DNA from: Rhodospirillales bacterium
GTDB lineage: Bacteria; Pseudomonadota; Alphaproteobacteria; Rhodospirillales; Magnetospirillaceae
Assembly: GCA_019455065.1 (NCBI GenBank)
Contig: JACFNC010000007.1
Location: 62,001 to 126,000 of the forward strand
Length of the DNA stretch: 64,000 nt
Reading direction: 5' to 3'
Shown here: piece by piece, positions 2,386 to 63,630 of the stretch
How the letters are laid out: every line of letters begins with the position of its first letter
Position numbering within the stretch: position 1 is the first letter of the stretch
Made by a program: the position numbers and the translations under genes
Notes under the pieces: model-generated
What the model saw: only the letters and a program-made list of their open reading frames with translations
Databases searched by the model: none
What the model was told of the DNA's origin: nothing

Positions 2386-2412
2386 TGTTCAACCTCGTTG
2401 TCGAGGTCGACC

Positions 2413-34062: not shown

Positions 34063-34078
34063 ATCCAGAAGAACGAGT

Positions 34079-42390: not shown

Positions 42391-42494
42391 GGGTGTCTAC
42401 GTATGAAAAGGCCGAGGCGTGAACTCGACGGTGAATACGGCTGGCCGTGCGGGCAGGCAAGGGCATTCGGCCCCCCTACCGGCAAAAGGGGCGG

Positions 42495-43867: not shown

Positions 43868-45007
43868 CTATTTCGGCGCAACGGTCTGAGGGTCGAGCTT
43901 GCTGTAGACCTGTTCCCACAGCACCTCCGCCATCTTGGCCGGGTCGCTGCCGATTTCCTGGCTCAATTTTTCCCATTTAACCAGAGCCTTCTCATGGCTC
44001 GCCCAAAGCTCGCCGAAATTGGGGACGCCGCGCTTTTCGGCGTCGCTGACGACGATCTCCCTCTCGCGGGCGCGGATGCCCGCCACCACCTTGACGAACT
44101 CGGCGTCGGGCTTGATGAACTTGATGCCTTTCCGCTCGGCCGCCGCTTCGGCCTCGGACTGCTCGAACAAATAGCCGGCGATGACGGAATCGGCGACCAG
44201 CCGGGGAAGGTTCTTGAAGATCGCCTGTCGCTGTTCGGGCGACAGCTTGCTCCACGCGGCCTTGCTCATGGTGAACATGTCGTTGCCGCGGGCATACCCG
44301 AGGGGATGGGTGATGATGACCTTGGCGCTTTCCTGGAGGCTGAACTGGGTGAGCCAGGGCAGGGGGGACACGGCGCAGTCGATCTGGCCCCTGTTCATCG
44401 CTTCCATCACCTCCGGCGGTGGAACGACGACGCGGGTGGCGCCGAGGTCCGCCAGCAATTCTTTCTGGGCGCCGCCGACGATACGCATCTTGCGCCCCTT
44501 GAGCGACGCCGAGTTCGGCACGTCGGTGGTGCAACTCATGTAGTAGGCGGAGGTGGCCACGGGGGCCATGGGCATCGCCCCGGCCGCCGCCAGTTCCGCC
44601 CGGCAGTCCGGGCAGTTCAACATCACCGTTTCGGCGGTTGCGCCGGTGATGGCCACCGCATTGGCGCCGGCGAACAGGGTTTGCATCAAGGCGTTGAGGG
44701 TCTTGATCTCGCTGGGCACGAAGATCGGTATGACGAATCCGGCGTCGGCGGTGCCGTCGCGCAGGGACGAGATCGACGTTTTGGCGTTCGCGAGCTGATT
44801 GCCAGGGAAGGTCTGGATCGTGACCGTTCCCCCCGTATCCTTGGCCACCCGTTCGACGAAGGGCAGGACCGAGCGCCTGAAGGTCGAGTTGATGCTGGGC
44901 TGCGACGTGGCGTAGCGCAGTTCGATCTTGTCCGCCGCCACGGCGGGTGGACTCGCGAGTACGGCCAATGCCGGAAGGGCGAGCAGAAGGCGTGCCGACT
45001 TGAACAT
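43868..45007 (-). CDS. TRAP transporter substrate-binding protein (DctP family)
   Basis: A 379-residue periplasmic protein with a signal peptide (FKSARLLLALPALAVLASPP, AVAA cleavage). The DctP fold is visible in IELRYATSQPSINSTFRRSV, FPGNQLANAKTSISSLRDGT and the arginine-containing SLKGRKMRIVGGAQKELLAD, whose Arg usually binds the carboxylate of the ligand. ATG 45007 has a GGAGGAA ribosome site. Last gene of the dctQMP set. Confidence 0.9.
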   Translation of the reverse strand: MFKSARLLLALPALAVLASPPAVAADKIELRYATSQPSINSTFRRSVLPFVERVAKDTGGTVTIQTFPGNQLANAKTSISSLRDGTADAGFVIPIFVPSEIKTLNALMQTLFAGANAVAITGATAETVMLNCPDCRAELAAAGAMPMAPVATSAYYMSCTTDVPNSASLKGRKMRIVGGAQKELLADLGATRVVVPPPEVMEAMNRGQIDCAVSPLPWLTQFSLQESAKVIITHPLGYARGNDMFTMSKAAWSKLSPEQRQAIFKNLPRLVADSVIAGYLFEQSEAEAAAERKGIKFIKPDAEFVKVVAGIRAREREIVVSDAEKRGVPNFGELWASHEKALVKWEKLSQEIGSDPAKMAEVLWEQVYSKLDPQTVAPK

Positions 45008-45015
45008 GTTTCCTC

Positions 45016-46323
45016 CTATCGTATTGAAGCCAGACTTGGCAGGAACAGGCTTATTTCGGGCCAAGTGACCAGACAGGCCACGATCACGACCTCGCACAGG
45101 AGGAACCATCCGACCCCTTTGAAGATGGTCTCCAGTGGAACGTCCACGACGCATCTGACGGCATAGACGTTCAGACCCACCGGGGGCGTGAGCAGGCCGA
45201 TCTCCAGGAACTTGACGACCAGCACGCCCATCCAGATGCCGTCCATTCCGAACGTCTTGAACAGCGGCAGCAGCAACGGCAGCGTCAGCAGCATGATACC
45301 GACGGGATCGAGAAACGTGCCCAGGACAAGGTAGATGACGGTGGCGAAGGCCAGCACCGCCAACTGGCTCTGTGCGTGGGTGCTCACGAAGTCCGAGAGG
45401 GCGCCGGGCAGGCCGGTCAGCATCAGGAACCGCGTCAGCAGAATGGCACCCGCGGCGATGAAGAAGATGTTTGCGGTGGTCAACACCGCCTCGCGAACCG
45501 CCGCATGCATGCTGCCGAGGCTGCACTTGCCCATCGCCATGGCGATGACGAAGGCCATCATGGCGCCGAAGGCGCCGGCTTCGGTAACGGTGGTCAGGCC
45601 CGAGTAGATGCCGCCGATCACGCATGCGATCAGCAGCGGCAGCGGCCAGACGCTGCGCAGCGCGGCGAAGCGCTCGTACCAACCGACCTTCTCGTGGATC
45701 GGGGGGGCCAGTCGCGGGCTTGCCCAGCATCGCGTCACGATCATGACGGTATAGACCGCCGCCGTCAGAACGCCCGGCAGGATGCCCGCGATCAGCAGGG
45801 CGGAAACGGACTCCTCGGCGAAGATGCCATACAACACGAACAGAACGCTGGGCGGGATGAGCGAGCCCAGTGTGCCTCCGGCCGCCACCACTCCCGTGGC
45901 GAGGCCCGGATCGTAGCGATAGCGCAGCATTTCGGGGGTGGCGATCTTGGCCATCGCCGAAGCGGTGGCAAGACTTGACCCCGAGGCGGCGGCGAATCCC
46001 GCGCAGGTGAAGTTGCTCGCCACGGCCAAGCCGCCGGGAAGGCCGGCAAGCCACAGTCGCGCGGCGCGGAACAGCGAGGTGGTCAACCCCGAATGGTAGA
46101 CGACCGCCCCCATGAGCAGGAACATCGGCACCGCCGACAGCGTCCAGTGCGCAATGAAATCGTAGGGCAGTACCGCGATGGCGCCGGCGGCCGTATTCAG
46201 GCTGGTGATCTGCCATATGCCAAGAAATGAGACGACCGACAGCGCCAAGCCCACGGGCACCCGCAGGGCAATCAGCACCAGGATCGCGACGAGGCCCAGA
46301 ATCCCGGTCTCAAGCGGCGGCAT
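45016..46323 (-). CDS. TRAP transporter large permease (DctM)
   Basis: A 435-residue membrane protein with about 12 helices. DctM hallmarks are LSVVSFLGIWQ near the start, VPMFLLMGAVVYHSGLTTSL, GFAAASGSSLATASAMAKIA and GTLGSLIPPSVLFVLYGIFA. It overlaps the small-permease gene by 14 bases. Forms the sodium-driven channel with DctQ. Confidence 0.93.
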   Translation of the reverse strand: MPPLETGILGLVAILVLIALRVPVGLALSVVSFLGIWQITSLNTAAGAIAVLPYDFIAHWTLSAVPMFLLMGAVVYHSGLTTSLFRAARLWLAGLPGGLAVASNFTCAGFAAASGSSLATASAMAKIATPEMLRYRYDPGLATGVVAAGGTLGSLIPPSVLFVLYGIFAEESVSALLIAGILPGVLTAAVYTVMIVTRCWASPRLAPPIHEKVGWYERFAALRSVWPLPLLIACVIGGIYSGLTTVTEAGAFGAMMAFVIAMAMGKCSLGSMHAAVREAVLTTANIFFIAAGAILLTRFLMLTGLPGALSDFVSTHAQSQLAVLAFATVIYLVLGTFLDPVGIMLLTLPLLLPLFKTFGMDGIWMGVLVVKFLEIGLLTPPVGLNVYAVRCVVDVPLETIFKGVGWFLLCEVVIVACLVTWPEISLFLPSLASIR

Positions 46324-46858
46324 CGAGACCTCCCTCCGACGCCGCTTCCTCCTCGACGGCGTTCGTGGCGCAGCGCCGCCACGCCACGAGCAGGCAGTAC
46401 GTTCCGGCTATGCCCATGGCTGCCGGTAGAATCCATCGGGTCGGCCAGATCCTGAGAATGTCGACAGTCGTGTCGACGAACTCTCCAAGGCCCGTCTTGT
46501 GTACGGCGAGCTTGGCGGTGTACCAGGTACACAGCAGAAACCAGGCCGCCAGCAGTAGATCGGAGGAAACGTCCAGGACGCGCGAAACCCGCGCGCTGAA
46601 CAACGCCGAGAACAACTCGACTTGGATCATCGATCGGGAGCGGCGCAGGTGAAGCAGTGGCAGGAAGGCGATGCCGACCATGTAGTAGTAGCTGACGACC
46701 TCGGTGGTGGCTTCGAGTGATTGGCGAAAGACCAGCCGCGAGCCGATGTCGGCGACGACATGCACGGTCATCAGGACCATGAAGGCGCACGCCACGGCGA
46801 CGAGCAGGTTGTCGAGTACGGCGAAGAACCGCTCCGGGAACGCGCGCATGGCTTTCAT
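46310..46858 (-). CDS. TRAP transporter small permease (DctQ)
   Basis: A 182-residue membrane protein with four helices (LLVAVACAFMVLMTVHVVAD, VVSYYYMVGIAFLPLLHLRR, LDVSSDLLLAAWFLLCTWYT, RWILPAAMGIAGTYCLLVAW), the DctQ pattern. First of the TRAP genes; 144 bases separate it from the ThDP gene upstream, with no strong hairpin seen, so read-through is possible. Confidence 0.9.
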   Translation of the reverse strand: MKAMRAFPERFFAVLDNLLVAVACAFMVLMTVHVVADIGSRLVFRQSLEATTEVVSYYYMVGIAFLPLLHLRRSRSMIQVELFSALFSARVSRVLDVSSDLLLAAWFLLCTWYTAKLAVHKTGLGEFVDTTVDILRIWPTRWILPAAMGIAGTYCLLVAWRRCATNAVEEEAASEGGLDAAA

Positions 46859-47002: not shown

Positions 47003-48760
47003 TCAAGGCGGGACCAGCACCTCGCGGTCCGGGAATGCCGGCTCCCGACCAATTTCCGGCGGGCCACTGACCGCTTCGATTTCGGCCACCAGCACCGCGG
47101 CCTGGCCGGCTCGCACCGCCGCCAGGCAGCGGGTCAGGGCCGCTGGCAGAGCCTCAGGGTCGGAGACCCGCTCGCCGTGAGCGCCGGCCGCCGCCGTCAC
47201 AACGTCCCAGCGCGGGCCGTCGAGGGCGGCGCAGAACATCTCCTCGGTGGCCGCCGCGCCGTCGGGATAGACCGCCAGCGTGGCGCGCTTGACCGCCGCC
47301 CAGCCCCGATTGTCGAGGACGACGGTCAGGAAGGGCAGGCGTTGGCGCGCCGCCACGGCGAGGACCGCCTCGGGGGCGGAGAAACCGAAGCTGGCGTCGC
47401 CGGTCACCGCGACCACGAGGCGCCCGGGATGGGCCAGTTTGACCCCGAGAGCCACGCCGCCGGCGAACCCCAGGCCGCCACCGCCGTTTGACAGGAAGGT
47501 GCCGGGCCGCGTGCGCGGCACGCGCGTGAGCACTGCAAGCACGTTGGTGATAGCCTCGTTGACGATGATCGTGTCGTCGTCCACGCACTTGGCGAGTTCA
47601 TCACAGACGAACCCTGCGGATAGCGCACCGCTCCGGCCGGGTGCGGCGGGCGGTGGCGCCTCGCGGCGGGCCAGTGCCTCGAGACGGCGGCGGGCGGCCG
47701 ACCGCCAGTCCTCGCCGGCCCGGGTCTCGAGAATGTCGGCCAGCCGCGTCAGCGTGCTGGCGCTGTCGGCCTGCACACGAAGATGGCTTGGGAAGGGCCA
47801 TGTCGGCAGGTCGCGTTTCAACGGGTCGACGTCAATCTGGGCCCAGAACGTGCCGGGTCTCTCGGTGCCGGCAAGCGGTATCCAGGGCACGTCCACATCT
47901 ACGAGCAGGCCGAAATCGGCGTCCGGGCAGCCGGCGCCGTACAGGAATCCCGCGAAGCAGGGCGCCGTGCGCGAGATGTTCAGGTGGGTCGGATTGGCCT
48001 CGTACACACGCATGCCGGCTAGGCGCCCCAGGCGCTCGATCGCCGCGGGGGCGGCCGGATTGCGGCCGGCGTACTGGGTGATGAGAATCGGGTCGCGCGC
48101 CGCAAGCAGGCGCGTGGCAATGCGTCCGATGGCGTCGTCGTCGGCGCCGCCGACCGCCACTGGCCCGTAGGCGTCGGCGGGATAGCTTCGCACGGCGTGG
48201 TCGTCGACGCCCTGCGCCAGCACCTCGCGGGCGACCGTGAGGAAGACGGGGCCTTTGGGGTCGCTGTGCATGACCGTGTGGGCGCGCCGCAATACCTCCT
48301 TGACGATCGTTCCCGAGGGAAGATCGTAATTCCACGTCACGTAGGGGCGCACCAGCGAGGCCAGGTCGAACGGCTCCTGGACGAAGTTCACCAAGGTGTC
48401 CCGCGATCCCGGAAGTTCGCCGCGCGAGGTGAACGGTGCCTTGCCGGCCAGCAGCAGGAGCGGCACCCGCGAGCGGAAGAAATTGTGTAGCCCCATGGCG
48501 GCATTCGCGGTGCCCACGTCGACGTGGGCGAGCACGGCCTGGCCGCGTCCGGTGGCCATGGCGTAGCCGCCGGCCATGTGCACGGCCACCGTCTCATGCG
48601 GACAAAGAATGACCTCGGGCGGTCGCCGGCCGCGCCGTTTCCACGCCGCCAGTTCCTCGATGATCGGCACATGATCGGTGCCGAGGTTGCAGAACAGGAA
48701 TTCGACGCCGGTTTCGCACAGCGCTTCGAGAAGGTAGTGGGCTGTCGAATGGCTGGTCAT
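47003..48760 (-). CDS. ThDP-dependent decarboxylase/acetolactate synthase-like enzyme
   Basis: A 585-residue thiamine-diphosphate enzyme. The N-terminal domain carries the catalytic Glu in ILCPHETVAVHMAGGYA; the C-terminal ThDP motif runs from VVAVTGDASFGFS to TVVLDNRGWAAVK. The middle domain is of the acetolactate-synthase/benzoylformate-decarboxylase type. Alpha-keto-acid decarboxylation to an aldehyde would suit the aldehyde dehydrogenase at 53606, but carboligase activity cannot be excluded. A strong GGAGG site precedes ATG 48760, 33 bases after the DmsC-like gene. Confidence 0.87.
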   Translation of the reverse strand: MTSHSTAHYLLEALCETGVEFLFCNLGTDHVPIIEELAAWKRRGRRPPEVILCPHETVAVHMAGGYAMATGRGQAVLAHVDVGTANAAMGLHNFFRSRVPLLLLAGKAPFTSRGELPGSRDTLVNFVQEPFDLASLVRPYVTWNYDLPSGTIVKEVLRRAHTVMHSDPKGPVFLTVAREVLAQGVDDHAVRSYPADAYGPVAVGGADDDAIGRIATRLLAARDPILITQYAGRNPAAPAAIERLGRLAGMRVYEANPTHLNISRTAPCFAGFLYGAGCPDADFGLLVDVDVPWIPLAGTERPGTFWAQIDVDPLKRDLPTWPFPSHLRVQADSASTLTRLADILETRAGEDWRSAARRRLEALARREAPPPAAPGRSGALSAGFVCDELAKCVDDDTIIVNEAITNVLAVLTRVPRTRPGTFLSNGGGGLGFAGGVALGVKLAHPGRLVVAVTGDASFGFSAPEAVLAVAARQRLPFLTVVLDNRGWAAVKRATLAVYPDGAAATEEMFCAALDGPRWDVVTAAAGAHGERVSDPEALPAALTRCLAAVRAGQAAVLVAEIEAVSGPPEIGREPAFPDREVLVPP

Positions 48761-48793
48761 CGATGCTCCATCCTCCGCCCGTCCCGCCGTGCC

Positions 48794-49687
48794 CTAGCCG
48801 CGATGCCGTTGCCGGGGAACGATCAAGGGCCGGTAGACGCCGGCCCGCACGGTGGACAGTTTCATGAAGAAGTCGCCGGCCGCCGAGGTCAGTCCGACCA
48901 GCGCCATGATCACGGGATAGTTTCCGCCCGCCGCGCCGAGGGCGAGCGGCACGCCGAGGCCGATCGCCAGCGTTCCTCCATAGAAGATCGCGGCCAGTCG
49001 GCCCGCCAGGATGTCGTGCACCGACCGGCGGGCGGCGACGTCGGATCCGGCCGCGGCGCCCTGTAGCTCCAGCGCGAAGAGAAGGGCGACCAGCCCGGTC
49101 ACCACCAGCCACAACGGCATCAGCGCGGCGCCGCTGGCGTGTCCGAATGCGGCGAGGACCAGCAGCATGGCCACGCCTCCGCGCACGGCATAGGCGATGT
49201 ACAGAACCGGATGCAGGGGCGAGTTCCAGAACGGCACGCCCTTCGAGGCCGTGTAGGTGAAACCCATATAGCCGATGATTGTCAGGGTGCCGGCCAAGGC
49301 CGCCAGGCCCGCGATCAACGCCGCCAAACCTCCCGGTGCCGCCAGCTCGAACGCGAGATGCAGGCATCCCCCCGCAAGGAACAGGGTGAGTCCGACGAAG
49401 CCCCGCGATATCCACGAGGTGCGCCAGTGCCGGACCATCTTGAACGCCCGTTCCGGACGGCCGAGAAAAGCGAGGTGGCCCAGTCCCCCCAATCCCCCGA
49501 GGAGCACGGCCGTCATCAGTCCGGCGGTAATGCCGAACCACCACGACAGCAGCCAGGTTCCGCCGGCAATGCCGACCAGGAAATGTCCGACGACGAGGAG
49601 CACACCGCGGCCTTCGCCCCATTCGCGTTGGGGCCGATAGTCGGCCCTCAGGTCGGCAAGCAATTGTTGGTAGCGCTGGCCGCTCAT
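48794..49687 (-). CDS. DmsC-type membrane anchor subunit
   Basis: A 297-residue protein with about eight helices (LLVVGHFLVGIAGGTWLLSW, GFVGLTLFLAGGCLHLAFEL, LAALAGTLTIIGYMGFTYTA). The pattern is that of the DMSO reductase anchor (DmsC), which exchanges electrons with quinones. It starts 7 bases after the Fe-S gene. With the Fe-S subunit it should form the membrane module for the molybdoenzyme encoded 3 kb upstream. Confidence 0.83.
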   Translation of the reverse strand: MSGQRYQQLLADLRADYRPQREWGEGRGVLLVVGHFLVGIAGGTWLLSWWFGITAGLMTAVLLGGLGGLGHLAFLGRPERAFKMVRHWRTSWISRGFVGLTLFLAGGCLHLAFELAAPGGLAALIAGLAALAGTLTIIGYMGFTYTASKGVPFWNSPLHPVLYIAYAVRGGVAMLLVLAAFGHASGAALMPLWLVVTGLVALLFALELQGAAAGSDVAARRSVHDILAGRLAAIFYGGTLAIGLGVPLALGAAGGNYPVIMALVGLTSAAGDFFMKLSTVRAGVYRPLIVPRQRHRG

Positions 49688-49694
49688 GTCCGCC

Positions 49695-50300
49695 TCACGG
49701 TGGAAGGTAGTAGACGTTGGGTCCGGTGCCGGCTTCCGGGTGCAGGGTGAAGCCGCCGCGTTCCTTGATCAGGGTCGAAACCTGGCTATTGGGATCGTCG
49801 AGGTCGCCGAAATATCGGGCGGTGGACGCGCAGTTGGCGACACAGGCCGGGAGCTTGCCCTCCGCCAGTCGATCGCGGCAGAAGTTGCATTTCATCACCA
49901 CGCCTTCGGGATGGCGCAGCGTGCGCGCCGTCTCGTAGACGGTGGGGCCGGCGCCCGGATAGTAGTCGCGCCGCTCGCCGTTGAAGTAGCGGTTGCCGTA
50001 GGGACAGGCCATCATGCAGGCGCGGCAGCCGACGCACTTGTCCTGGTCGATGTCGACGATGCCATGCTCGGCGTAATGGCTGGCCTCGGTGGGACAGACT
50101 TCGACGCATGGGGCATCGTCGCAGTGGTTGCACAGCACCGGCAGGAAGAGATGCCGGACCGTCGGATATCGCCCCTCCTCGGACTTCAGCACCCGCGCGA
50201 AGAAAACCCCCGGCGGGGTTCCGTGTTCGGCCTTGCAGGACAACTGACACCCGTAGCAGCCGATGCAGCGCCTGAGGTCGATGACCATGCCCAGTCTCAC
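49695..50300 (-). CDS. DmsB-type four-cluster Fe-S subunit
   Basis: A 201-residue ferredoxin-like protein with four [4Fe-4S] motifs: CIGCYGCQLSC, CNHCDDAPCVEVCP, CVGCRACMMACPYG and CNFCRDRLAEGKLPACVANC. This is the electron-wire subunit of complex iron-sulfur molybdoenzymes. GTG 50300 has a GGGGAGG site; the ATG at 50288 is the alternative. No signal peptide, as is usual for this subunit. It starts a possible operon running to the TRAP genes. Confidence 0.9.
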   Translation of the reverse strand: MRLGMVIDLRRCIGCYGCQLSCKAEHGTPPGVFFARVLKSEEGRYPTVRHLFLPVLCNHCDDAPCVEVCPTEASHYAEHGIVDIDQDKCVGCRACMMACPYGNRYFNGERRDYYPGAGPTVYETARTLRHPEGVVMKCNFCRDRLAEGKLPACVANCASTARYFGDLDDPNSQVSTLIKERGGFTLHPEAGTGPNVYYLPP

Positions 50301-50406
50301 GGCCGCTCGCCTCCCCGGCGGTTCCGGTCGCGGCGGCCGCTTGCGGAGACGGCGCGTCCGCCCGCATCGGCGAAAGACGTCATTTCCCTCTTCCGTTCTG
50401 TGTGGT

Positions 50407-50460
50407 GGAACGATATTCTAAATTCAAGAAAAGGTACCATCATCGGCTTCGTTCCGTCAA
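50407..50460 (-). promoter_or_regulatory. Fe-S/anchor operon promoter with regulon operator
   Basis: On the minus strand TTGACG (50460-50455), 18 bases, TACCTT, then 11 bases to the operator, which reads GGAACGATATTCT on the plus strand (50407-50419). The Fe-S gene starts 107 bases further on. Confidence 0.55.
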
Positions 50461-50489
50461 TTGACCGGAATCCCTTGGGCTCATGGCAC

Positions 50490-50825
50490 TCATCCGCCCT
50501 CCTGGCAGGACAGAAGAATCATTTCGACCGTTGCGGCGCCGGCCAGCGGCGCCACGGGGTCGCGCAGCGAGCGAATCAGCCGTCCATTCACCGAAATGCG
50601 GCAGTAGCTCGCCTCCTTGTCCGCGGCGCGCATGATCTCCGCTTGGAACTCCTGGCCGTAGCGGTCGCTGAGGGCGGCGATGACCTGGGCCACCGTCGCT
50701 CCGGCGGGCAGGTGAACGGTGGCGGCGCGCTCCCCCGTCAGGCTCGCCATCATGCCGAAGAAGGCCACTCGAACCTCGCCGGTCGTCTCGGCGGCACCAC
50801 GCGGCACGGGCGGCGCGGCGATCAT
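50490..50825 (-). CDS. MoaD/ThiS-family protein paired with the molybdoenzyme
   Basis: A 111-residue ubiquitin-fold protein (VRVAFFGMMASLTGERAATV, LPAGATVAQVIAALSDRYGQ) ending in SCQEGG, with the diglycine needed for thiocarboxylation. Its ATG overlaps the stop of the molybdoenzyme gene (ATGA). About 18 residues precede the fold. A private sulfur carrier for cofactor assembly or sulfuration of this enzyme is the simplest reading. Confidence 0.82.
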   Translation of the reverse strand: MIAAPPVPRGAAETTGEVRVAFFGMMASLTGERAATVHLPAGATVAQVIAALSDRYGQEFQAEIMRAADKEASYCRISVNGRLIRSLRDPVAPLAGAATVEMILLSCQEGG

Positions 50826-53431
50826 TCGGCCGCCCTCGTGACCTTTACCTTTACGCACAGGTCCAGGTTCAGATTGACGGGGCTGGTGCGTTTCCAGTCG
50901 AGTTCGAGAAGGTCGTTGAAGAAGACCCCCTTGCCCATCGCGGTCGGCAGACCCTTCGCCCAGTGATTGGCCAGAGCGGCGATGCCCAGTCCCTCGGGAT
51001 GGATGCATTCGGTCAGGCGCAGGCGGCCGGTGATCTTGCGGCCGGTGTCGGACTCGATTTCCACGAGATCCCCGTTGGCCAAGCCCCGAGCGCGAGCGAC
51101 CTCGGCGTTGATCGCCACGTTGTAGGAGAAGGGGTCGAGCTGCGCCGCCTCGTCGAGCCAGGCGTTCTCCATCGTGTAGCTGTTGGTGTGCAGGGTGTCT
51201 CGGTAGTAGAAGGCGAAGAAGTCGAAACCGGGCTTCTCGACCTCGTGCGAATGGCAGGGCAGCCAGTCCGGCAGCGGCCGGTAGTATTCGAGCGGCATCT
51301 CGAGGCCCCGCGGATCGGCAAGCGCCGCCGCCTTCTCGCCGATGTCGGGCATCCATTCCCAGTAGATCGGCACCCGCACGTCGAGGAACGGCCGCCAGTA
51401 GACCTCCTGCGGCTTCTTCTTCCACCTGATGACGCCGTTCTCGCGGAACCATTCCAGGCCGCGCTCGGGGCCGAAATTATGCTTCAGTTCGGCGTCGCAA
51501 ATCTCCTCGTAGGTGTAGCGGCGCCCGCCGTCCAGGCGGTAGGGCGGCTCGAGTTCGAGGATGGCGTTGAAAGCGGCGATCATGTCCGGGAGGAAGCCCG
51601 TGCGCTCCGCCAGCTCGAGCAGCACATCGGCGAACCGGCGTTGCTCGCCGTCCGGCGGCAGCACCGGCTGGCGGATCGGCCAGCTCCAGTCGCCCATGCC
51701 CGCGGGATGGCTGAAAATGGTCGGGAAATTGGACCGCGAATCCACCGATTGGAGGTAGCTGCAGTCAGGCAGCACGATGTCGACGAAATCCGAGGTCTCG
51801 GTCAGGAACAGGTCGATCGAGACGATGAATTCATATTTGGCGAGCGATGCCGCCATGGTGTCCTTGTTTGCGATGCTCATCAGCAGGTTGGCCCCGAAAT
51901 TGATCAGCATTTCGGGGCGATACTCGATGCCGAAGCGCTCCCACCAGTGCTCGCGGTCGGGTGCGTCGAGGAAGGGCGACACCATTCCCATTGGAAACAG
52001 GCCTTGTAGGCCGAGCGTCTTCGGCAGTTTCGGGTCCTCGACCGGATAGGGATGATGCCAGCCCATCCATTGGCCGACCTCCATCAGGCCGTCCGGGGTG
52101 GCGACCGGCACGTAATGCGGCCGGCCGCTATCGGGATGGCCGTCCACCACCGGCGGAAAGCCGAGGCACGACCCGACGACGTCGGCGGCGCCGACGAGAT
52201 GGTTCAGCAGGTCGACCGCCAGGAAGTTGTAGACCGAGTTGCGGTGGCCCTGGTTGCCCCGGAAGGCGATGGCCGCCACCGGCCGGTAGGGCAGGGTCAC
52301 CCCCTCGATGACGATGGTGCTGCCGATGCGGGCTTCGCGCGCAAACTCCTCGGCGATGCGCCGTAGGTTGGCTGCCGGAATCGTCGTGATCTTCTCCGCC
52401 CACTCCGGCGTGTATTGCCGCAGATGCTCCTTGAGCAGGGCGAACGAGGGGCGGCAGGTCACGCCGTCGACTTCGAACGATCCTTCCAGCGCCATGTCGT
52501 CGGCGGCGGCGCCGTCGAAGGGGCGGGCGGCGCCGGCCATGAGATCCCACACGAGCGGCTTGCCGTCCTTGTCGCGGACATAGCGGCCGTCGGGACCGAT
52601 CAGATAGGGGCCGTTCGTCTTCCCCTTGAGATAGGGCGCGTCAATCGCGCCAAGGTCGTTGGCGATGACGTTGCCGATCGCCAGCGCCGCCGCGGCGTCG
52701 GTGCCGACGCGCAGGGGCACCCACTCGGTGGCCTTGGCGGCGGCGAAATTGCACATGGGATCGAACACCACCAGCTTCATGCCGCGTGCCCGGGCATCCG
52801 CCGCCATCCCCATGTTCGAGGTCGAGGCATGGCCCGCCGAGTGGCCCTTCGACGCCCCGAAATACATGGCGTAGTTGCAGTACTGGAAGTCCGGCAGGAT
52901 GCCCCACGAGGCGTGCATGATGCCGCTGATGAGATGGGCGCCGTTGCCGCAATGCAGCCCGCCGCCGGCCACCGAGAGGTTTGGCGTGCCGAAGCCGAAG
53001 GCGAAGGCCTGGAAGGGGTTCTTGTTGGCGGTGACGGTGGTCGTGCGCTGGATCACCAGCTTGCGCGGGTCCTCCGCGCGGATGCGCTTGAGGTGGCCGA
53101 CGATCTCGGTCAGCGCCTCCTCCCAGCTGATTTCCTTCCAGCCGGGATCGACCCCGATTTCCTTGACGGGATTGGTGCGGCGCAGCGGCTTGGTCAGGCG
53201 ATTGGGATCGTAGTGGACCATCAGGCCGCTGACACCCTTGGCGCACAGCCGCCCCTTTCCGACCGCGCTCTCCGGGTTGCCTTCGATCTTGATGGCGACG
53301 CCGTTCACACGGTGCACCTGGATCGAACAGGATCCGTAGCACAGGGCGCAGGCCGACGGGATCCAGACGTCGTCCCCTGCGCGCGGTTCGGATGACAGTC
53401 GCTGCTGATGCTCGCACTCGGCGGCGGTCAT
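50822..53431 (-). CDS. Molybdopterin oxidoreductase, DMSO reductase family
   Basis: An 869-residue catalytic subunit. It has an N-terminal [4Fe-4S] site (C28, C31, C35, C63), the bis-MGD domains, and a C-terminal molydopterin-dinucleotide domain (FFAFYYRDTLHTNSYTMENA, VEIESDTGRKITGRLRLTEC). The metal ligand is not obvious; S198 in FGASKGHSAGH aligns by position with the usual Cys/Ser. No Tat signal is present, so it should work in the cytoplasm. ATG 53431 is chosen; the 1424-residue open frame upstream is antisense to the ALDH gene. The reaction (for example hydroxylation, transhydroxylation or reduction) is unknown. Confidence 0.87.
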   Translation of the reverse strand: MTAAECEHQQRLSSEPRAGDDVWIPSACALCYGSCSIQVHRVNGVAIKIEGNPESAVGKGRLCAKGVSGLMVHYDPNRLTKPLRRTNPVKEIGVDPGWKEISWEEALTEIVGHLKRIRAEDPRKLVIQRTTTVTANKNPFQAFAFGFGTPNLSVAGGGLHCGNGAHLISGIMHASWGILPDFQYCNYAMYFGASKGHSAGHASTSNMGMAADARARGMKLVVFDPMCNFAAAKATEWVPLRVGTDAAAALAIGNVIANDLGAIDAPYLKGKTNGPYLIGPDGRYVRDKDGKPLVWDLMAGAARPFDGAAADDMALEGSFEVDGVTCRPSFALLKEHLRQYTPEWAEKITTIPAANLRRIAEEFAREARIGSTIVIEGVTLPYRPVAAIAFRGNQGHRNSVYNFLAVDLLNHLVGAADVVGSCLGFPPVVDGHPDSGRPHYVPVATPDGLMEVGQWMGWHHPYPVEDPKLPKTLGLQGLFPMGMVSPFLDAPDREHWWERFGIEYRPEMLINFGANLLMSIANKDTMAASLAKYEFIVSIDLFLTETSDFVDIVLPDCSYLQSVDSRSNFPTIFSHPAGMGDWSWPIRQPVLPPDGEQRRFADVLLELAERTGFLPDMIAAFNAILELEPPYRLDGGRRYTYEEICDAELKHNFGPERGLEWFRENGVIRWKKKPQEVYWRPFLDVRVPIYWEWMPDIGEKAAALADPRGLEMPLEYYRPLPDWLPCHSHEVEKPGFDFFAFYYRDTLHTNSYTMENAWLDEAAQLDPFSYNVAINAEVARARGLANGDLVEIESDTGRKITGRLRLTECIHPEGLGIAALANHWAKGLPTAMGKGVFFNDLLELDWKRTSPVNLNLDLCVKVKVTRAAE

Positions 53432-53458
53432 GAAGCCTCTCTCGACGTTCTGCGGTAA

Positions 53459-53508
53459 AGAACGGCATTCTATAAAAGATGCTGACATGGCGGTTGGGGC
53501 GTTGTCAA
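53459..53508 (-). promoter_or_regulatory. Molybdoenzyme promoter with regulon operator
   Basis: On the minus strand TTGACA (53508-53503), about 18 bases, a weak -10 (CAGCAT), 7 bases, then the operator, which reads AGAACGGCATTCT on the plus strand (53459-53471). A further half-site GACGTTCT lies at 53444-53451. Confidence 0.5.
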
Positions 53509-53523
53509 TCGGCTTCGGCCGCA

Positions 53524-53574
53524 TTGACGGGGAAACGCGCCTGTGCAAATCTCCATGGTGCAGAACGACGTTCT
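53524..53574 (+). promoter_or_regulatory. ALDH promoter with perfect regulon operator
   Basis: TTGACG (53524-53529), 17 bases, AAATCT, 9 bases, then AGAACGACGTTCT (53562-53574), a copy with complementary AGAACG/CGTTCT arms. The start codon is 32 bases downstream. Confidence 0.62.
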
Positions 53575-53605
53575 GTAGAAAGGAACGATAGAAGGCGAGG
53601 CGAGC

Positions 53606-55057
53606 ATGTTCGAGGCGAACCTTCTGATTGGCGGGGACGACGTCCGGGCTTGCGACGGCGCCACCTTCGAACGCCGGAACCCGCTCGGCGGCGCGATCGC
53701 GACCCGTGCGGCTGCGGCCACGGTGGCCGATGCAGGCGCCGCCGCCGATGCGGCCGGCGCCGCCTTTCCCGGTTGGGCGGCGACGGGCCCCAAGGACCGG
53801 CGGGCCAAGCTGACGGCCGCCGCCGACCTGATCGAGAAGCGCGCCGCCGACTTCGTTGCCATGATGATGGACGAACTCGGGGCGACCCGGGCTTATGCTC
53901 TCTTCAACGTGCGTCAGGGCGTCGATACCCTCCGCGAGGCGGCGGCGATGACGACCCAGGTCTGCGGGGAAGTCATTCCGTCGGACGTGCCGGGGCGCCT
54001 GGCGATGACGGTGCGTCGTCCGGCGGGCGTGGTCCTGGGCATCGCGCCATGGAACGCCCCCCTTATCCTCGGTCTGCGGGCGGTCGCGATGCCGTTGGCC
54101 TGCGGCAATACGACCGTGCTCAAGTCGTCGGAGTTGTCGCCGGGCACGCATCGGCTCATCGGCGACGCCTTCCGCGATGCGGGACTGCCGCCTGGAACCA
54201 TCAACGTGGTGAGCAACGCGCCGGCCGACGGGCCGGCGGTCGTCGAGGCGCTCATCGCCCATCCGGCGGTCCGGCGCGTCAACTTCACCGGGTCGACCCG
54301 CATCGGCCGCATCATCGGCGAAAAGGCGGCGCGGCATCTCAAGCCGGCGCTGCTGGAACTGGGAGGCAAGGCGCCCCTGGTGGTGCTGGAAGACGCCGAC
54401 CTGGATGCGGCGGTCGCCGCCACCGCCTTTGGCGCCTACATCAACCAGGGCCAAATCTGCATGTCGACGGAGCTGGCGGTGGTCGATGATTCTGTCGCCG
54501 ATGCGTACGTGGCCAAACTTGCGCACAAGGCCGCTTCGCTGCCGGCGGGAGATCCGTCCTGCGGCGATGTCGTGCTCGGCGCCATGATTGATCGCGAGGC
54601 CGCGCAGCGGGTCGCCGCGCTCGTCGACGACGCTGTCGGCAAGGGGGCGGTCGTCGCGGCCGGCGGCACGGTCGAGGGTCCGGTCATGGCCGCCACGGTT
54701 CTCGATCGGGTGACCGCCGACATGCGCATTTTCCATGAAGAGAGCTTCGGACCGGTGGTGTCCGTGGTGCGCGCGGCCGGGCCAGACGAGGCGGTGCGCT
54801 TCGCCAACTCGGGCGAGTACGGCCTTGCGGCGGCCGTTTTTGGACGAGACGTCGGCCAAGCCCTGGCGGTGGCGATGCGGATCGAATCCGGGATCTGCCA
54901 CGTCAACGGCGCCACCGTCCATGCCGAACCGCAGGTTCCTTTCGGCGGGGTCAAGGCGAGCGGCTACGGCCGGTTCGGCGGCAAGGCGGGGATCGAGGCA
55001 TTCACCGAGTTGAGGTGGCTGAGCATCGCCACCGAGGCCGCGCGCTTTCCGTTCTAG
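53606..55057 (+). CDS. NAD(P)-dependent aldehyde dehydrogenase
   Basis: A 483-residue ALDH-superfamily enzyme. NAD-binding GSTRIGRIIGEKAARHL, the general-base Glu in LLELGGKAPLVVLEDADLD, and the catalytic Cys in NQGQICMSTE are all present, as is the C-terminal EESFGPVVSV. It resembles aryl aldehyde (salicylaldehyde or vanillin type) dehydrogenases. It is divergent from the molybdoenzyme under a shared operator set; it could oxidise the aldehyde made by the ThDP enzyme. Ribosome site GAAGGCGAGG. Confidence 0.92.
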   Translation: MFEANLLIGGDDVRACDGATFERRNPLGGAIATRAAAATVADAGAAADAAGAAFPGWAATGPKDRRAKLTAAADLIEKRAADFVAMMMDELGATRAYALFNVRQGVDTLREAAAMTTQVCGEVIPSDVPGRLAMTVRRPAGVVLGIAPWNAPLILGLRAVAMPLACGNTTVLKSSELSPGTHRLIGDAFRDAGLPPGTINVVSNAPADGPAVVEALIAHPAVRRVNFTGSTRIGRIIGEKAARHLKPALLELGGKAPLVVLEDADLDAAVAATAFGAYINQGQICMSTELAVVDDSVADAYVAKLAHKAASLPAGDPSCGDVVLGAMIDREAAQRVAALVDDAVGKGAVVAAGGTVEGPVMAATVLDRVTADMRIFHEESFGPVVSVVRAAGPDEAVRFANSGEYGLAAAVFGRDVGQALAVAMRIESGICHVNGATVHAEPQVPFGGVKASGYGRFGGKAGIEAFTELRWLSIATEAARFPF

Positions 55058-55214: not shown

Positions 55215-57137
55215 TCAGTGCTTCTGGCCGCCGTAGTGCTTCTCGACCAGGTCGACGTGCGGGCGCTTGAAGCAGGTCCACACGCCGGTCTCGGTGTCGA
55301 TCTTCGAATTGACGAAGCACTTCCAGTTGGCCTCGTCGAGGTTCGGGAAGTCGGCGCGGTAGAAGAACCCCGGATAGCGGGTTTCCTCGCGGAACTGGAT
55401 GTGCCGCAGATGCGCCTCGGCAGTGACGATGCGGTGGTAGTTCTCCCAGGCGCGCATCAGCTCGTGCAGGTCCTTGGCGCGCATCTTCTTGCTGTCTTCC
55501 TTCAGCATGGTCAGCAGATGCAGGCCCTGTTCGAGCAGCTTGGCGTTGGTCTGGTAGTAGGTCGACACGCCCGCCACATACTCGTCCATCAGCTTCTGCA
55601 GGCGCTGCTGCAGCGAGCGGGGCAGGATGTAGTAAGGGTTGACGTCCTCGGCCGTGGTCTTGTCCTTGTGCTCGATGTAGTTGCGCACCGGCAGGTAGAT
55701 TTCCTCGGCGATGGCGTTGATGTCGCCCTTCAGGGCCGGGTTGTAGCCCGGATGATTCTGAACGAAGCGCACCATCTCCTTGCCGGCGATGCGGCCTTCG
55801 GTGTGCGATCCCGACGAGAACTTGTGGCCCGACGCGCCGACGCCGTCGCCGGCGGTGAACAGGCCGGTGACCGTGGTCATGCGGTTGTAGCCCCACTTCC
55901 AGTCGGCCGGGCTGTTGAGGTCCTCAGGCCCCGACACCCAGATGCCGCAGCAGCCGGAGTGGCTGCCCAGCAGGTAGGGCTCGGTCGGCATCAGCTCCGA
56001 CGGGGTCTGCTCGGGGCGGATGTTCATGCCGGCCCACACGCCGGCCTGGCCGATGCACATGTCGAGGAAGTCTTCCCAGGCCTCGGCCTCGAGATGCTTG
56101 ATCTCCTTCGGCGTCATCGTTTCGGCCAGCTTGGCCATCGCCGCCGGGGTCTGCATCAGGATCGGGCCGCGGCCCTCCTTCATTTCCTTCAGCATGGCGT
56201 GGTTGCGCAGGCAGGTCGGCACCACCGCCGCCTTGTCGTAGGGGGCGAAGTCGGCCAGCATGTCCGCGTTCTTCACCACGTAGTCCTCGCCGAAGCCGTT
56301 GGTGGCCTTCGACTTGAACAGCAGGAACCAGGCGCCGACCGGGCCGTAGCCGTCCTTGAAGCGGGCGGGGACGAAGCGGTTTTCCATCATCGTCAGCTCG
56401 GCGCCGACCTCGGCCGCCATGGCATAGGTCGAACCGGCGTTCCACACCGGATACCAGGTGCGGCCGTTGCCCTCGCCGGTCGAGCGCGGACGGAACACGT
56501 TCACCGCGCCGCCGGCCACCAGCAGGATGGCGTTGGCCTTGAAGACGTAAAGCTTGTGCTCGCGCACGCTCAGGCCGACCGCGCCGGCGATGCGGTTCGG
56601 CTCGTTCTGGTCGAGGAGCAGCTTCACGATGAAGCAGCGTTCGATGATGTTCTCGATGCCCAGCGACTTCTTGGCGGCTTCCGCGACGATGGTCTTGTAG
56701 CCTTCGCCGTTGATCATGATCTGCCACTTGCCCGAGCGCACAGGCTTGCCGCCGTCCTTCAGCGGCACGCCCTCGGTCTCCTTGGTCTTCCAGATCGGAA
56801 GGCCCCATTCCTCGAACAGATGCACGGTGTCGTCGACGTGACGGCCGACGTCGAACACCAGGTCGTCGCGGGTGATGCCCATCAGGTCCGCGCTGACCAT
56901 GCGGCAGTAGTCTTCCGGCTTCTGCTCGCCGAGATAGGTGTTGATGGCCGAGAGGCCCATGGCGACGGCGCCCGAGCGGTCGAGGGCGGCCTTGTCGACC
57001 AGGGTGATCTTGACGTTGTCGCCGGCCCAGCGCTTGGCCTCGAAGGCGGCGCCGCAGGCGGCCATGCCGCCGCCGATGATGAGAATGTCGGTCTTGACCT
57101 CGACAATCTCGGGATTACCGAAACTGGCTTCGCTCAT
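55215..57137 (-). CDS. aprA: Adenylylsulfate (APS) reductase, alpha subunit
   Basis: A 640-residue flavoprotein. The FAD motif ILIIGGGMAACGAAFEAKRW follows a short lead, and AprA-specific stretches include GAVAMGLSAINTYLGEQKPE, DEYVAGVSTYYQTNAKLLEQ and RPRSTGEGNGRTWYPVWNAG. AprA catalyses the reversible two-electron step between APS and sulfite plus AMP in the cytoplasm. ATG 57137 has a GGAAGGAAC site; length is as expected. It follows aprB by 66 bases. Direction of the reaction in this organism is not visible. Confidence 0.96.
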   Translation of the reverse strand: MSEASFGNPEIVEVKTDILIIGGGMAACGAAFEAKRWAGDNVKITLVDKAALDRSGAVAMGLSAINTYLGEQKPEDYCRMVSADLMGITRDDLVFDVGRHVDDTVHLFEEWGLPIWKTKETEGVPLKDGGKPVRSGKWQIMINGEGYKTIVAEAAKKSLGIENIIERCFIVKLLLDQNEPNRIAGAVGLSVREHKLYVFKANAILLVAGGAVNVFRPRSTGEGNGRTWYPVWNAGSTYAMAAEVGAELTMMENRFVPARFKDGYGPVGAWFLLFKSKATNGFGEDYVVKNADMLADFAPYDKAAVVPTCLRNHAMLKEMKEGRGPILMQTPAAMAKLAETMTPKEIKHLEAEAWEDFLDMCIGQAGVWAGMNIRPEQTPSELMPTEPYLLGSHSGCCGIWVSGPEDLNSPADWKWGYNRMTTVTGLFTAGDGVGASGHKFSSGSHTEGRIAGKEMVRFVQNHPGYNPALKGDINAIAEEIYLPVRNYIEHKDKTTAEDVNPYYILPRSLQQRLQKLMDEYVAGVSTYYQTNAKLLEQGLHLLTMLKEDSKKMRAKDLHELMRAWENYHRIVTAEAHLRHIQFREETRYPGFFYRADFPNLDEANWKCFVNSKIDTETGVWTCFKRPHVDLVEKHYGGQKH

Positions 57138-57203
57138 TACTTCTGTTCCTTCCCTCAATGCCTTTCATCGCGCCGCAGCGGGGCGCGGTAGGTGGTGGAC
57201 GCG

Positions 57204-57626
57204 TCAGATGGTCGGCAGGGTCTTGCCGGCTTCGGTGAACAGGAGCGGGCTCTTCAGGTCGCCCGCCTCCGGCTTGCCGGCATAGGGGTCGATCGAGCCG
57301 ACCGGCGTCGTGCGCACCGGGAACTTGAACCGCTTCACCTCGCCGTCACGGAACTTGATGGTCCACATGATCGCGCTGTCGGTGCGCATCGGAATGACGG
57401 CGCCGCCCATCGGCACGAAGTCCTGATAGGCGCGGACCTCGATGGCCTGCTGCGGGCACGCCTTGACGCAGCACTGGCATTCCCAGCACTGGTCGGGCTC
57501 CTGGTTGTAGGCCTTCATCCGCGTCGTATCGAGCTTCATCAGGTCATTGGGGCAAATGTACATGCAGGCGGTCACCGAACCGCCCTTGCAGCCATCGCAC
57601 TTGTCGGTATGCACGAAAGTGGGCAT
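57204..57626 (-). CDS. aprB: APS reductase, beta subunit
   Basis: A 140-residue Fe-S protein with two [4Fe-4S] motifs, CDGCKGGSVTACMYICP and CWECQCCVKACPQQ, followed by the AprB C-terminal arm (VPMGGAVIPMRTDSAIMWTI, VKRFKFPVRTTPVGSIDPYA) that wraps around AprA. It passes electrons between the FAD of AprA and the Qmo complex. First gene of the aprBA pair. Confidence 0.96.
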   Translation of the reverse strand: MPTFVHTDKCDGCKGGSVTACMYICPNDLMKLDTTRMKAYNQEPDQCWECQCCVKACPQQAIEVRAYQDFVPMGGAVIPMRTDSAIMWTIKFRDGEVKRFKFPVRTTPVGSIDPYAGKPEAGDLKSPLLFTEAGKTLPTI

Positions 57627-57780
57627 CGCACCTCTCTCCTATGTCTCACACGATTTCAGCTAGTCCGGCGGCAGCGATGCCGACCCGGGCACGCAGCGCC
57701 GCCCGGCCCCGCGTGGATTTGTTTCGCGCCGTCTGCCCCAGAAGGAAAAAACGAACAAACTGGCGGCGATTATTATAAAA

Positions 57781-57813
57781 GGGTAATCTAAATACCCATG
57801 ATAAATGTGTCAA
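57781..57813 (-). promoter_or_regulatory. aprBA promoter with palindrome
   Basis: On the minus strand TTGACA (57813-57808), 17 bases, TAGATT (57790-57785). The -10 is inside the palindrome GGGTATTTAGATTACCC (57797-57781, five-base complementary ends), so a regulator may bind over it. The flank also has TATAATAAT. Confidence 0.6.
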
Positions 57814-57838
57814 ATCCAATCGCGACGGAAATCCCGAC

Positions 57839-58195
57839 ATGACCGACAGGCTCTCGCACCTAACCCGGCGGCTGGTCGCGTTCCGTGACGCGCGGGATTG
57901 GTCGCAGTTCCATTCCCTCAAGAACTTGATGCTGTCTCTTAACCTCGAGGCCTCGGAACTGCTCGAGCTGGCGCAATGGAAGTCCGACGCCGAGGTCGAC
58001 GCTTCACTTGCGGATCCCGCGTTCAAGGAGAGGCTGGCCGAGGAATGCGCCGACATCCTCAATTACCTTCTGCTCATTTGCGAGCGAGCGGGGATCGACT
58101 TGGCCGAGGCGGCAGACGCAAAGATCAGCCGCAACGACGCCAAGTACCCGGTCGCCAAGGCGCGCGGCTCCGCCAAGAAATACACGGAGCTGTGA
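57839..58195 (+). CDS. MazG-like nucleotide pyrophosphohydrolase
   Basis: A 118-residue all-alpha NTP pyrophosphatase of the small MazG/RS21-C6 (dCTPase-like) type. The metal-binding ExxE...ExxD pattern is seen in LNLEASELLELAQW and LAEECADILNYLLLICERAG, and KYPVAKARGSAKKYTEL ends it. It removes pyrophosphate from non-canonical or excess nucleotides. It lies on the opposite strand between sat and aprB, sharing the promoter region with aprB. Confidence 0.9.
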   Translation: MTDRLSHLTRRLVAFRDARDWSQFHSLKNLMLSLNLEASELLELAQWKSDAEVDASLADPAFKERLAEECADILNYLLLICERAGIDLAEAADAKISRNDAKYPVAKARGSAKKYTEL

Positions 58196-58206
58196 TCGTA
58201 CCAAGA

Positions 58207-58226
58207 CCCTCTCCCACGGGAGAGGG
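58207..58226. terminator. Hairpin between the convergent MazG-like gene and sat
   Basis: CCCTCTCCC-AC-GGGAGAGGG, the same type of stem as at 20536, placed between two converging genes. Confidence 0.5.
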
Positions 58227-58253
58227 AGGATGCTGGGGACATCCCTCTCACCG

Positions 58254-59435: not shown

Positions 59436-59507
59436 GTCTTCTTCCCTCTCGGGTTGATACTCGTTCGGGACTTGCCGCCCGATTCCTCCACCCTGTCGGC
59501 GGATGCG

Positions 59508-59605
59508 GTTTTTATAATATAATATACCATCAAAATCTAATGGAAAATCCACACTCCGCGACGGGTTCTTGCGGGGTACTTCGGCGGGCAGTTATAATAT
59601 TGAGA
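59508..59605 (-). promoter_or_regulatory. AT-rich promoter region of sat
   Basis: Two AT-rich blocks stand out in this GC-rich DNA: ttataatataatatacc at 59512-59528 and gttataatattgagaattat at 59590-59609. On the minus strand they give TATATTATATTATA and TATTATAAC. A weak palindrome CCATTAGATTTTGATGG (minus strand, 59543-59527) shares TTAGATT with the aprB palindrome. Confidence 0.4.
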
Positions 59606-59643
59606 ATTATTAGCAGAACAGGGCCATCATTCGAGGAGGAGCG

Positions 59644-59667
59644 AAAACAATCCAACCGCTAGGATTG
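59644..59667 (-). terminator. Terminator after the qmo-hdr genes
   Basis: On the minus strand CAATCC-TAGCGGTT-GGATTG is followed by TTTTCG, 45 bases past the hdrB stop. The perfect palindrome GGCGCCGCGGCGCC lies directly after the stop. Confidence 0.6.
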
Positions 59668-59711
59668 CTTCGCCTGCGGCCCGCAATAATTTTGCAGAGG
59701 CGCCGCGGCGC

Positions 59712-60611: not shown

Positions 60612-60630
60612 GTCCCGCTCCCGTCGACAG

Positions 60631-61329: not shown

Positions 61330-61332
61330 GGC

Positions 61333-63609: not shown

Positions 63610-63630
63610 TGGGAATTCCTCCGCTGGCGG

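Follow-up and report, generated by a model that had tools for sequence, protein, structure and literature searches.

A stretch of 64,000 nucleotides from a Rhodospirillales bacterium (GCA_019455065.1, contig JACFNC010000007.1, positions 62,001-126,000 of the forward strand; hereafter the window) holds, at 47003-55057, the genes of a putative membrane-attached molybdenum or tungsten (Mo/W) enzyme complex with a MoaD-like sulfur carrier of its own, together with genes for a thiamine diphosphate (ThDP)-dependent enzyme and an aldehyde dehydrogenase. We propose, with about as much confidence as reservation, that the complex oxidises an arylacetate, likely as its coenzyme A (CoA) ester, to an arylglyoxylate, and that the ThDP enzyme and the aldehyde dehydrogenase finish the conversion to the aromatic acid. 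A preliminary description of the locus had given the positions and types of these genes, which proved right apart from the type of the membrane anchor. Its author knew of no named pathway with this set, and we likewise found no paper on it in the open-access literature (preprints and most subscription journals were outside the scope), nor any that joins at least four of the five terms benzoylformate decarboxylase, benzaldehyde dehydrogenase, phenylacetate, phenylglyoxylate and anaerobic. Passages of PMC2907700, PMC4148979 and PMC4959651 name PadBCD/PadEFGHI genes in other organisms, not this set.

What might such a pathway look like? A tripartite ATP-independent periplasmic (TRAP) transporter would import the aromatic acetic acid, and a PaaK-type ligase, whose gene lies at weaker copies of the operator described below, would supply the CoA ester. 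The Mo/W complex would oxidise the methylene group next to the carboxyl, most likely in the CoA thioester, to give the arylglyoxylate and pass the electrons to quinone; the ThDP enzyme would decarboxylate the arylglyoxylate to an aromatic aldehyde, and the divergently encoded aldehyde dehydrogenase would convert the aldehyde to the aromatic carboxylate, which a UbiD-family enzyme, also at weaker operators, may process further, perhaps by decarboxylation. The private MoaD would feed the transfer of sulfur to the pterin of this molybdoenzyme. This chain is the simplest one that uses all the operator-linked parts, and there is a known precedent for its first oxidation in PadBCD, which yields phenylglyoxylate from a CoA ester according to passages of PMC5109826 and PMC9765128. 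The gene set, the lack of export signals, the shared operator sites, the protein families and the recurrent co-location with 2-oxo-acid modules are features that the sequence itself shows; the substrate, the activity and its direction, the CoA ester, the order of the steps and the roles of MoaD, UbiD and the transporter are what we infer.

The catalytic complex and its MoaD

The genes on the minus strand are transcribed in the order catalytic subunit, MoaD, a gap that holds an operator copy, 4Fe-4S subunit, NrfD-type subunit, ThDP enzyme and TRAP-like genes, and the aldehyde dehydrogenase gene is divergent from the catalytic gene. The catalytic subunit (869 amino acids [aa], 50822-53431, minus strand) has Molybdopterin, Fe4S4 and dinucleotide-binding Pfam domains, all three over cut-off, which places it in the dimethyl sulfoxide (DMSO) reductase (MopB) family of enzymes with a Mo/W-bis(pyranopterin guanine dinucleotide) cofactor; its predicted [4Fe-4S] ligands are C28, C31, C35 and C63. 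An AlphaFold2 model built with an alignment of 37 relatives (predicted local distance difference test score 90.8, predicted template-modelling score 0.91) has as its nearest solved folds ArrA (Z 33.8, 706 residues, root-mean-square deviation 3.2) and PsrA (Z 32.7, 680 residues, root-mean-square deviation 2.9), followed by formate dehydrogenases and acetylene hydratase at Z 28-30, though fold searches of this kind are unable to exclude other families. The NCBIfam scan of the subunit gave no equivalog at its cut-off; PhsA/PsrA reductases were rejected as an identity at 207.7 of the 694 bits required for PhsA and by the lack of a twin-arginine translocation (Tat) signal.

The preliminary description had the metal ligand in an FGASKGHSAGH region. 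This does not hold: Cys161 in GGLHCGNGAH (codon at 52949-52951, minus strand) aligns with Cys173 of the PsrA chain (position by our own count), which we take to be a metal ligand. Cys161 and His166 are invariant in 37/37 relatives, so that we rejected the earlier region and predict Cys161 as the ligand, which sets the enzyme apart from phenol hydroxylases with a Ser ligand. Use of a Cys ligand by PsrA is stated in a passage of PMC10100899.

On which side of the membrane does the complex work? That the subunit lacks a Tat signal was borne out, alternative starts included: no twin-arginine motif with a hydrophobic stretch occurs at the N-terminus (open reading frame from 53431), and an in-frame extension upstream by 120 residues takes in two RR pairs, one 118 and the other 37 residues from the start, with no hydrophobic stretch following either; the nearer one falls between operator copies. 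A Tat-like score was obtained for 2 of 121 related and outgroup rows, namely outgroup row L134 and a dissimilar open reading frame of L050 (4929-7904), and for none of the clade rows defined below; this test is weak for single rows, as some starts, for example that of L037, are mis-called. Since MoaD, the ThDP enzyme, the aldehyde dehydrogenase and the CoA ligase are cytosolic kinds of protein, the complex should face the cytoplasm.

An inward-facing enzyme on a DmsC-type anchor had been presented as unusual; the predicted cytoplasmic location stands, and the unusualness was put too strongly in view of SoeABC and PadBCD. PadBCD is said to be membrane-bound, to go by the title of a 1999 study by Rhee and Fuchs. 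It acts on a CoA ester (passages of PMC5109826 and PMC9765128) and is therefore taken as facing inward, and SoeABC is given as cytoplasmic in parts of PMC9774590 and PMC10100899.

The partner subunits are a 4Fe-4S electron-transfer protein (201 aa, 49695-50300, minus strand; Fer4_11), whose ArrB-, DsrO-, TtrB-, NrfC- and DmsB-like matches in the NCBIfam scan are all under the equivalog cut-offs, and a membrane anchor (297 aa, 48794-49687, minus strand) that is conserved with eight compared relatives and is predicted to reduce quinone. The Fe-S/anchor pair is thus present as first described, with the correction that the anchor, said to be DmsC-like, is closer to NrfD (Pfam NrfD 40.2 bits, cut-off 25.8; DmsC 22.3 bits, exactly its cut-off).

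The MoaD-like carrier (111 aa, 50490-50825, minus strand; Pfam ThiS, PF02597, 29.8 bits, cut-off 22.5) ends in GG, and its gene shares 4 bp (ATGA) with the catalytic gene. In 23 of 28 loci of the clade the catalytic gene has a MoaD-like gene no farther than 400 bp away; three of the remainder have one at a distance of 2.6-4.6 kb, and the last two gave no match. The coupling of the subunit to a MoaD of its own, noted before, thus extends through the clade. Because the genome has four further ThiS-family genes over cut-off, this one is an extra copy, and the score of 21 bits against 66.15 for the NCBIfam moaD equivalog led us to reject a housekeeping MoaD. The C-terminus is GG in 30 of 36 MoaD-like proteins and AG in five, and one protein runs on past GG; the 36 include two duplicate pairs. 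The AG-ending ones are from L044, L058, L047, L052 and L039 (2946-3386), and the catalytic genes that adjoin them form one sub-branch of the tree, with support 97.

Operator sites and the two downstream enzymes

The pattern CGTTC-N9-GAACG occurs in three exact copies in the window, all at promoters of the molybdoenzyme/aldehyde dehydrogenase set, against an expectation of 0.10, and none of 100 shuffled windows held it three times. One copy lies 15 bp upstream of the ATG of the catalytic gene (53446-53464), one upstream of the aldehyde dehydrogenase gene (53569-53587) and one upstream of the 4Fe-4S subunit gene (50394-50412). The linkage of the ThDP gene to the molybdoenzyme, and of the aldehyde dehydrogenase by the shared operator, is upheld. 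Genome-wide the pattern is not in excess (nine places, against seven for a reversed control pattern), and it is therefore the clustering, and the longer CGTTCTG form common to the three copies, that count. A looser pattern is found at seven places in the genome, four of them in this window. Two regulator genes of the window (29667-30425 and 38289-39005) encode, to judge by inspection, IclR-like proteins.

A weight matrix made from the three exact sites only, so that weaker sites are independent of it, has its fourth to sixth best window sites in or at the edge of an intergenic stretch of about 160 bp at 33.9-34.1 kb, between genes for a UbiD-family decarboxylase (32410-33918, minus strand, true start perhaps 33867; TIGR00148, 282 bits, cut-off 245) and a PaaK-type, phenylacetate-CoA-ligase-like acyl-CoA ligase (444 aa, 34079-35413, plus strand). 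The fourth (34057-34075, 18.7 bits) stands beside the ligase gene, the fifth (34037-34055, 17.3 bits) in tandem with it and the sixth (33911-33929, 14.8 bits) at the start of the UbiD gene; at these scores, the mean number of sites per 64 kb in 300 Markov sequences of matching composition was 0.007, 0.03 and 0.22. In 1.97 Mb of other loci there were eight sites at the lowest of them, and the sixth site is barely above the seventh (14.5 bits), which is inside a gene. The regulon is thus probably wider than the molybdoenzyme set and reaches the CoA ligase and UbiD.

The ThDP-dependent enzyme (585 aa, 47003-48760, minus strand), a predicted 2-oxo acid (arylglyoxylate) decarboxylase, belongs to NCBIfam NF006203 (605.1 bits, cut-off 456), an unspecific family. 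Its best solved relatives are benzoylformate decarboxylases, at about 97 bits. Benzoylformate decarboxylase has functional residues in Glu47 and His70, and the Glu and His that correspond to them are kept in all five family members compared, two of which are near copies. Sulfoacetaldehyde acetyltransferase (Xsc) was rejected as an identity (89.6 of 676 bits). The aldehyde dehydrogenase (483 aa, 53606-55057, plus strand) matches vanillin dehydrogenase 9ihb at 572 bits and salicylaldehyde dehydrogenases at 572 and 514, the next solved relative scoring 320; the vanillin-type match spans residues 21-482 and the GQICMSTE and ELGGK motifs are kept, and we predict an enzyme of the vanillin/salicylaldehyde type with an aromatic substrate. 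In two acidobacterial loci ThDP and aldehyde dehydrogenase genes are again paired, with a 4-bp overlap.

Three TRAP-transporter-like genes (DctQ, DctM and DctP, presumably, as named by inspection; 43868-46858, minus strand) lie 3' of the ThDP gene. For an acyl-CoA dehydrogenase, a 480-aa membrane protein and an adenine-deaminase-like gene farther downstream (39161-43649) Pfam scans suggested no role; the membrane protein, so called by inspection (40948-42390), is between the other two and has no Pfam match at 1e-8.

Relatives, neighbourhoods and rival explanations

A scan of our collection gave 279 relatives of the catalytic subunit, of which 80, in 78 loci, were kept; the working clade consists of the window and 27 loci at 56% identity or more (28 loci), and the named loci fetched are all from metagenome-assembled genomes. 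In a tree of 104 rows, clade-type proteins form a group of 35 rows with support 99, from Pseudomonadota, Acidobacteriota, Rokubacteria and Tectomicrobia, and we know of no characterised member. The row nearest to the window is from a Sterolibacterium metagenome-assembled genome (79% identity), and relatives at 38-48% identity occur in archaea, Chloroflexi and sulfate reducers. The tree was made by a quick method and some of its deep branches are long; named SoeA, PsrA, PadB and transhydroxylase sequences are not among its rows, and of L150-L157, where gene calls rest on poor training, it took only L153. Five loci (L039, L053, L059, L061 and L087) have two or three catalytic genes of the family within 12-22 kb, as if the family had expanded for different substrates.

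The genome also has a pad operon on the same contig, at about 188-198 kb (L033). It encodes a molybdoenzyme and an Fe-S subunit, matches to PadG and PadI that exceed their cut-offs, a PadH assigned by similarity and the beginning of a PaaK-type ligase. Its molybdoenzyme is 61-67% identical to those of seven pad operons (from the family of the Sterolibacterium genome and one other betaproteobacterial genome), and 29.4% identical to the catalytic subunit studied here. The pad-operon rows L033, L139, L140 and L153 form a separate group of 10 rows, with support 100, together with other paralogues from the window's own genome; the name of this clade comes from operons with PadG/H/I and PadJ-like genes. 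A second type of molybdoenzyme is found in PadEFGHI operons with an FdhD-like gene (L028, and L151 and L152, each 76% identical to it); these operons differ from PadJ-linked ones that the same genomes contain (L150 and L153), and their enzymes possibly serve another arylacetate.

Do relatives of the complex keep similar company? Of the 28 clade loci, 11 have a 2-oxo-acid module no more than 9 kb away, where about 1.8 would be expected from 75 PF02776 and 53 PF01558 matches in about 27.5 Mb (seven genomes); with the rate set more crudely at 9.6% for each locus, the probability of at least 11 of 28 is about 3e-5. Flanks of 9 kb on both sides were available in only 8 of the 28 loci (total flank 0.396 Mb), and one or two members of each cluster of neighbours were scanned against a library, the rest being assigned by clustering. 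The modules are ThDP enzymes of the NF006203 cluster (window, L044, L058 and L049) or of another cluster (L039 and L042), PadE-F-G-H-I (L054), PadE/G/I (L053) and IorAB-type fusions (L057, L060 and L114); a pad-type catalytic gene is within 9 kb in two clade loci. NF006203 has 70 matches in 25 genomes, four of them in the flanks of the 28 loci against about 0.3 expected by density, and a fifth adjoins a 41%-identical catalytic gene in L077. Of the seven genomes with a single match, three (the window's own, G302 with L044 and G465 with L058) have it beside the complex and four elsewhere. It is possible, and we suggest it only tentatively, that the whole clade with its dedicated MoaD carries out the alpha-oxidation of diverse aromatic acetic acids and leaves the arylglyoxylate to the host's own C-C-cleaving module, be it a ThDP decarboxylase with an aldehyde dehydrogenase, PadEFGHI or another, also in hosts that then cleave the ring with oxygen.

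Several observations weigh against an arylacetate-oxidising complex with these partners. L044 and L058, being near copies, are better counted as one, and ThDP genes may be commoner in catabolic islands than in the genome on average; the co-location figures are for these reasons indicative. No 2-oxo-acid module was seen in the flank covered in 17 of the 28 loci, and L037, the window's nearest relative, lacks a ThDP match in its locus, where a gentisate-dioxygenase-like cupin, a ring hydroxylase and an FAA hydrolase are encoded. UbiD is found within 9 kb in 6 of 28 loci and Amidohydro_2 in 5 of 28, and the substrates may therefore differ across the clade. An acyl-CoA ligase is within 9 kb in only three other loci, none of PaaK type lies so near to the window gene, and the ligase of the window is itself under the PaaK cut-off (TIGR02155, 277 against 646 bits). 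The ThDP enzyme does not reach the NCBIfam benzoylformate decarboxylase NF005485 (160.7 of 493 bits), and against one uniform pathway stand the aldehyde dehydrogenase of L044, which is of another subfamily and not of vanillin type, and the ThDP gene of L042, which is nearest to BbmA. Orthologues occur in only 2 of 54 other genomes of the bacterium's own family (68-70% identity). Membership of the pad-operon clade had to be rejected, as the tree, which is without named SoeA and other references, places the subunit outside it; its fall into a characterised clade would have overturned the preliminary description, and no such placement was found. Finally, the pad operon of the same genome makes phenylacetate itself unlikely, and the compound oxidised here is probably a substituted arylacetate.

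If not an arylacetate, what else might the complex act on? It may hydroxylate or oxidise some other aromatic substrate, such as a benzylic methyl group, a phenol ring or a free acid with no CoA attached. The ThDP enzyme and the aldehyde dehydrogenase would then belong to the same island but act at a later stage or in a separate step. We regard this as unlikely, yet as the likeliest of the alternatives. The neighbours of the clade suggest a broad aromatic context and no single substrate: besides the UbiD and Amidohydro_2 genes already counted, there are a ring hydroxylase with a gentisate-dioxygenase-like cupin in L037 and L051, HpaB with LigB in L039 and L052 and a VanA-type oxygenase in L046, and the five loci with two or three catalytic paralogues look as if the family had diversified. 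This explanation gives no reason why 2-oxo-acid modules are in excess or why L054 and L028 have PadEFGHI genes. Transhydroxylase and resorcinol hydroxylase, moreover, have a Ser ligand according to a passage of PMC10100899, whereas the corresponding Cys161 is invariant here, and we rejected membership of either group. The oxygen-dependent ring-attack genes beside relatives also bear on the earlier suggestion of an anaerobic attack on an organic acid with electrons going to quinone: an aromatic acid and quinone are still the likeliest partners, and an anaerobic attack is no more than a possibility.

It is improbable that the complex serves the sulfur cluster at 55-64 kb, as a sulfite dehydrogenase of SoeABC type or a cytoplasmic sulfur reductase would. 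Such a role would suit the fold and the Cys, which resemble those of PsrA and ArrA, as well as the AprA gene at 55215-57158, whose product exceeds its NCBIfam cut-off, and the presence of dsrA in the genome. The operator, however, links the complex to genes on the side away from the sulfur cluster, and the sole AprA match at the 27 related loci is one of 25% in L040; as the neighbourhood is not common to the relatives, we did not take a sulfur function from the AprA neighbour as first choice. The genome has, in addition, another candidate for such an enzyme (L031, 5018-7909), presumably SoeA-like. SoeA is itself cytoplasmic with a Cys ligand, as stated in part of PMC10100899, which speaks for the sulfur enzyme.

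Could the complex run in reverse, as a quinol-driven reductase of a cytoplasmic 2-oxo acid, aromatic acid or N/S-oxide? Reductases are common among members of the DMSO reductase family on such anchors, and D-2-hydroxyacid dehydrogenase genes in L037 and L046 suggest that 2-oxo acids may be reduced nearby, but operators common to an aldehyde dehydrogenase, a decarboxylase-like enzyme and a ligase point to a degradation route and the PadEFGHI neighbours are oxidative, which leaves us with little belief in this direction.

Known systems and meaning for the clade

The proposed arylacetate-oxidising complex would work like PadBCD with a different downstream end, from outside the pad-operon clade, and its kind is known, that of inward Mo/W oxidoreductases on NrfD-type anchors. 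Like PadBCD of Thauera aromatica and Aromatoleum it has catalytic, Fe-S and membrane subunits, and the pad-operon rows tested have no Tat-like start; in both cases an arylglyoxylate is passed to a decarboxylating enzyme, as stated for PadBCD in passages of PMC5109826 and PMC9765128 and as predicted here. The pad operons differ in sequence (29% identity and another clade, named PadB not being among the sequences compared), in a Pro-Asp of L033 where the window subunit has its third Fe-S cysteine, and in their use of PadEFGHI and PadJ where the window has a ThDP enzyme and an aldehyde dehydrogenase; no PadG or PadI match was found near the window complex. They differ also in that an FdhD-like gene stands beside four of them, and beside the three L028-type operons, but near none of the 28 clade loci, the window complex having a private MoaD instead. 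The L028-type enzymes are 35% identical to the window subunit and similar in length (860 aa), with the same set of subunits; the L028 operon has PadI and PadH over cut-off, and with its FdhD-like and PadEFGHI genes the type differs from the window, no MoaD, ThDP or aldehyde dehydrogenase match being found there.

In the mandelate pathway, benzoylformate decarboxylase is followed by benzaldehyde dehydrogenase, so that the predicted chemistry of the last two steps is alike (arylglyoxylate to aldehyde to acid), whereas the entry there is from mandelate, here from an arylacetate, and the ThDP enzyme here is of NF006203 and only distantly similar to the solved benzoylformate decarboxylases. SoeABC likewise consists of a catalytic and an Fe-S subunit that lie in the cytoplasm, attached to a membrane subunit, and has a Cys ligand (parts of PMC9774590 and PMC10100899), to which the window's features, predicted from sequence, correspond; its genetic context differs, as no AprA stands beside the 27 relatives beyond the one 25% match. 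Aldehyde oxidoreductase (AOR) belongs to another enzyme family than the window's molybdoenzyme. The introduction of PMC6365974 sets the two Mo/W families apart, and the same paper, in the part concerned, describes an operon for a single Mo/W enzyme, aorABCDE of Aromatoleum aromaticum, that includes MoaD-like genes and in this respect resembles the window.

The window has, by inspection, an AOR-type tungsten aldehyde oxidoreductase-like operon of its own at 1-3711 (Fe-S, large and flavin adenine dinucleotide subunits), followed at about 3774-3962 by a ThiS/MoaD-family gene over cut-off, as in the part of PMC6365974 on aorABCDE. At its other end (55215-63999) AprA, over cut-off, is followed by AprB, Sat and HdrBC/Qmo-like genes (by inspection), and dsrA is over cut-off on another contig; with the AprA region it would make up a dissimilatory sulfur pathway, oxidative or reductive.

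If the proposed oxidation of arylacetates by this complex is correct, a class of substrates could be assigned to a molybdoenzyme clade with members in Pseudomonadota, Acidobacteriota, Rokubacteria and Tectomicrobia. There would also be a second way, besides PadEFGHI, to handle arylglyoxylates after an oxygen-independent alpha-oxidation, one that ends in a free aromatic acid and not in benzoyl-CoA, and the role of an enzyme-specific MoaD in the supply of Mo/W cofactor would become testable.

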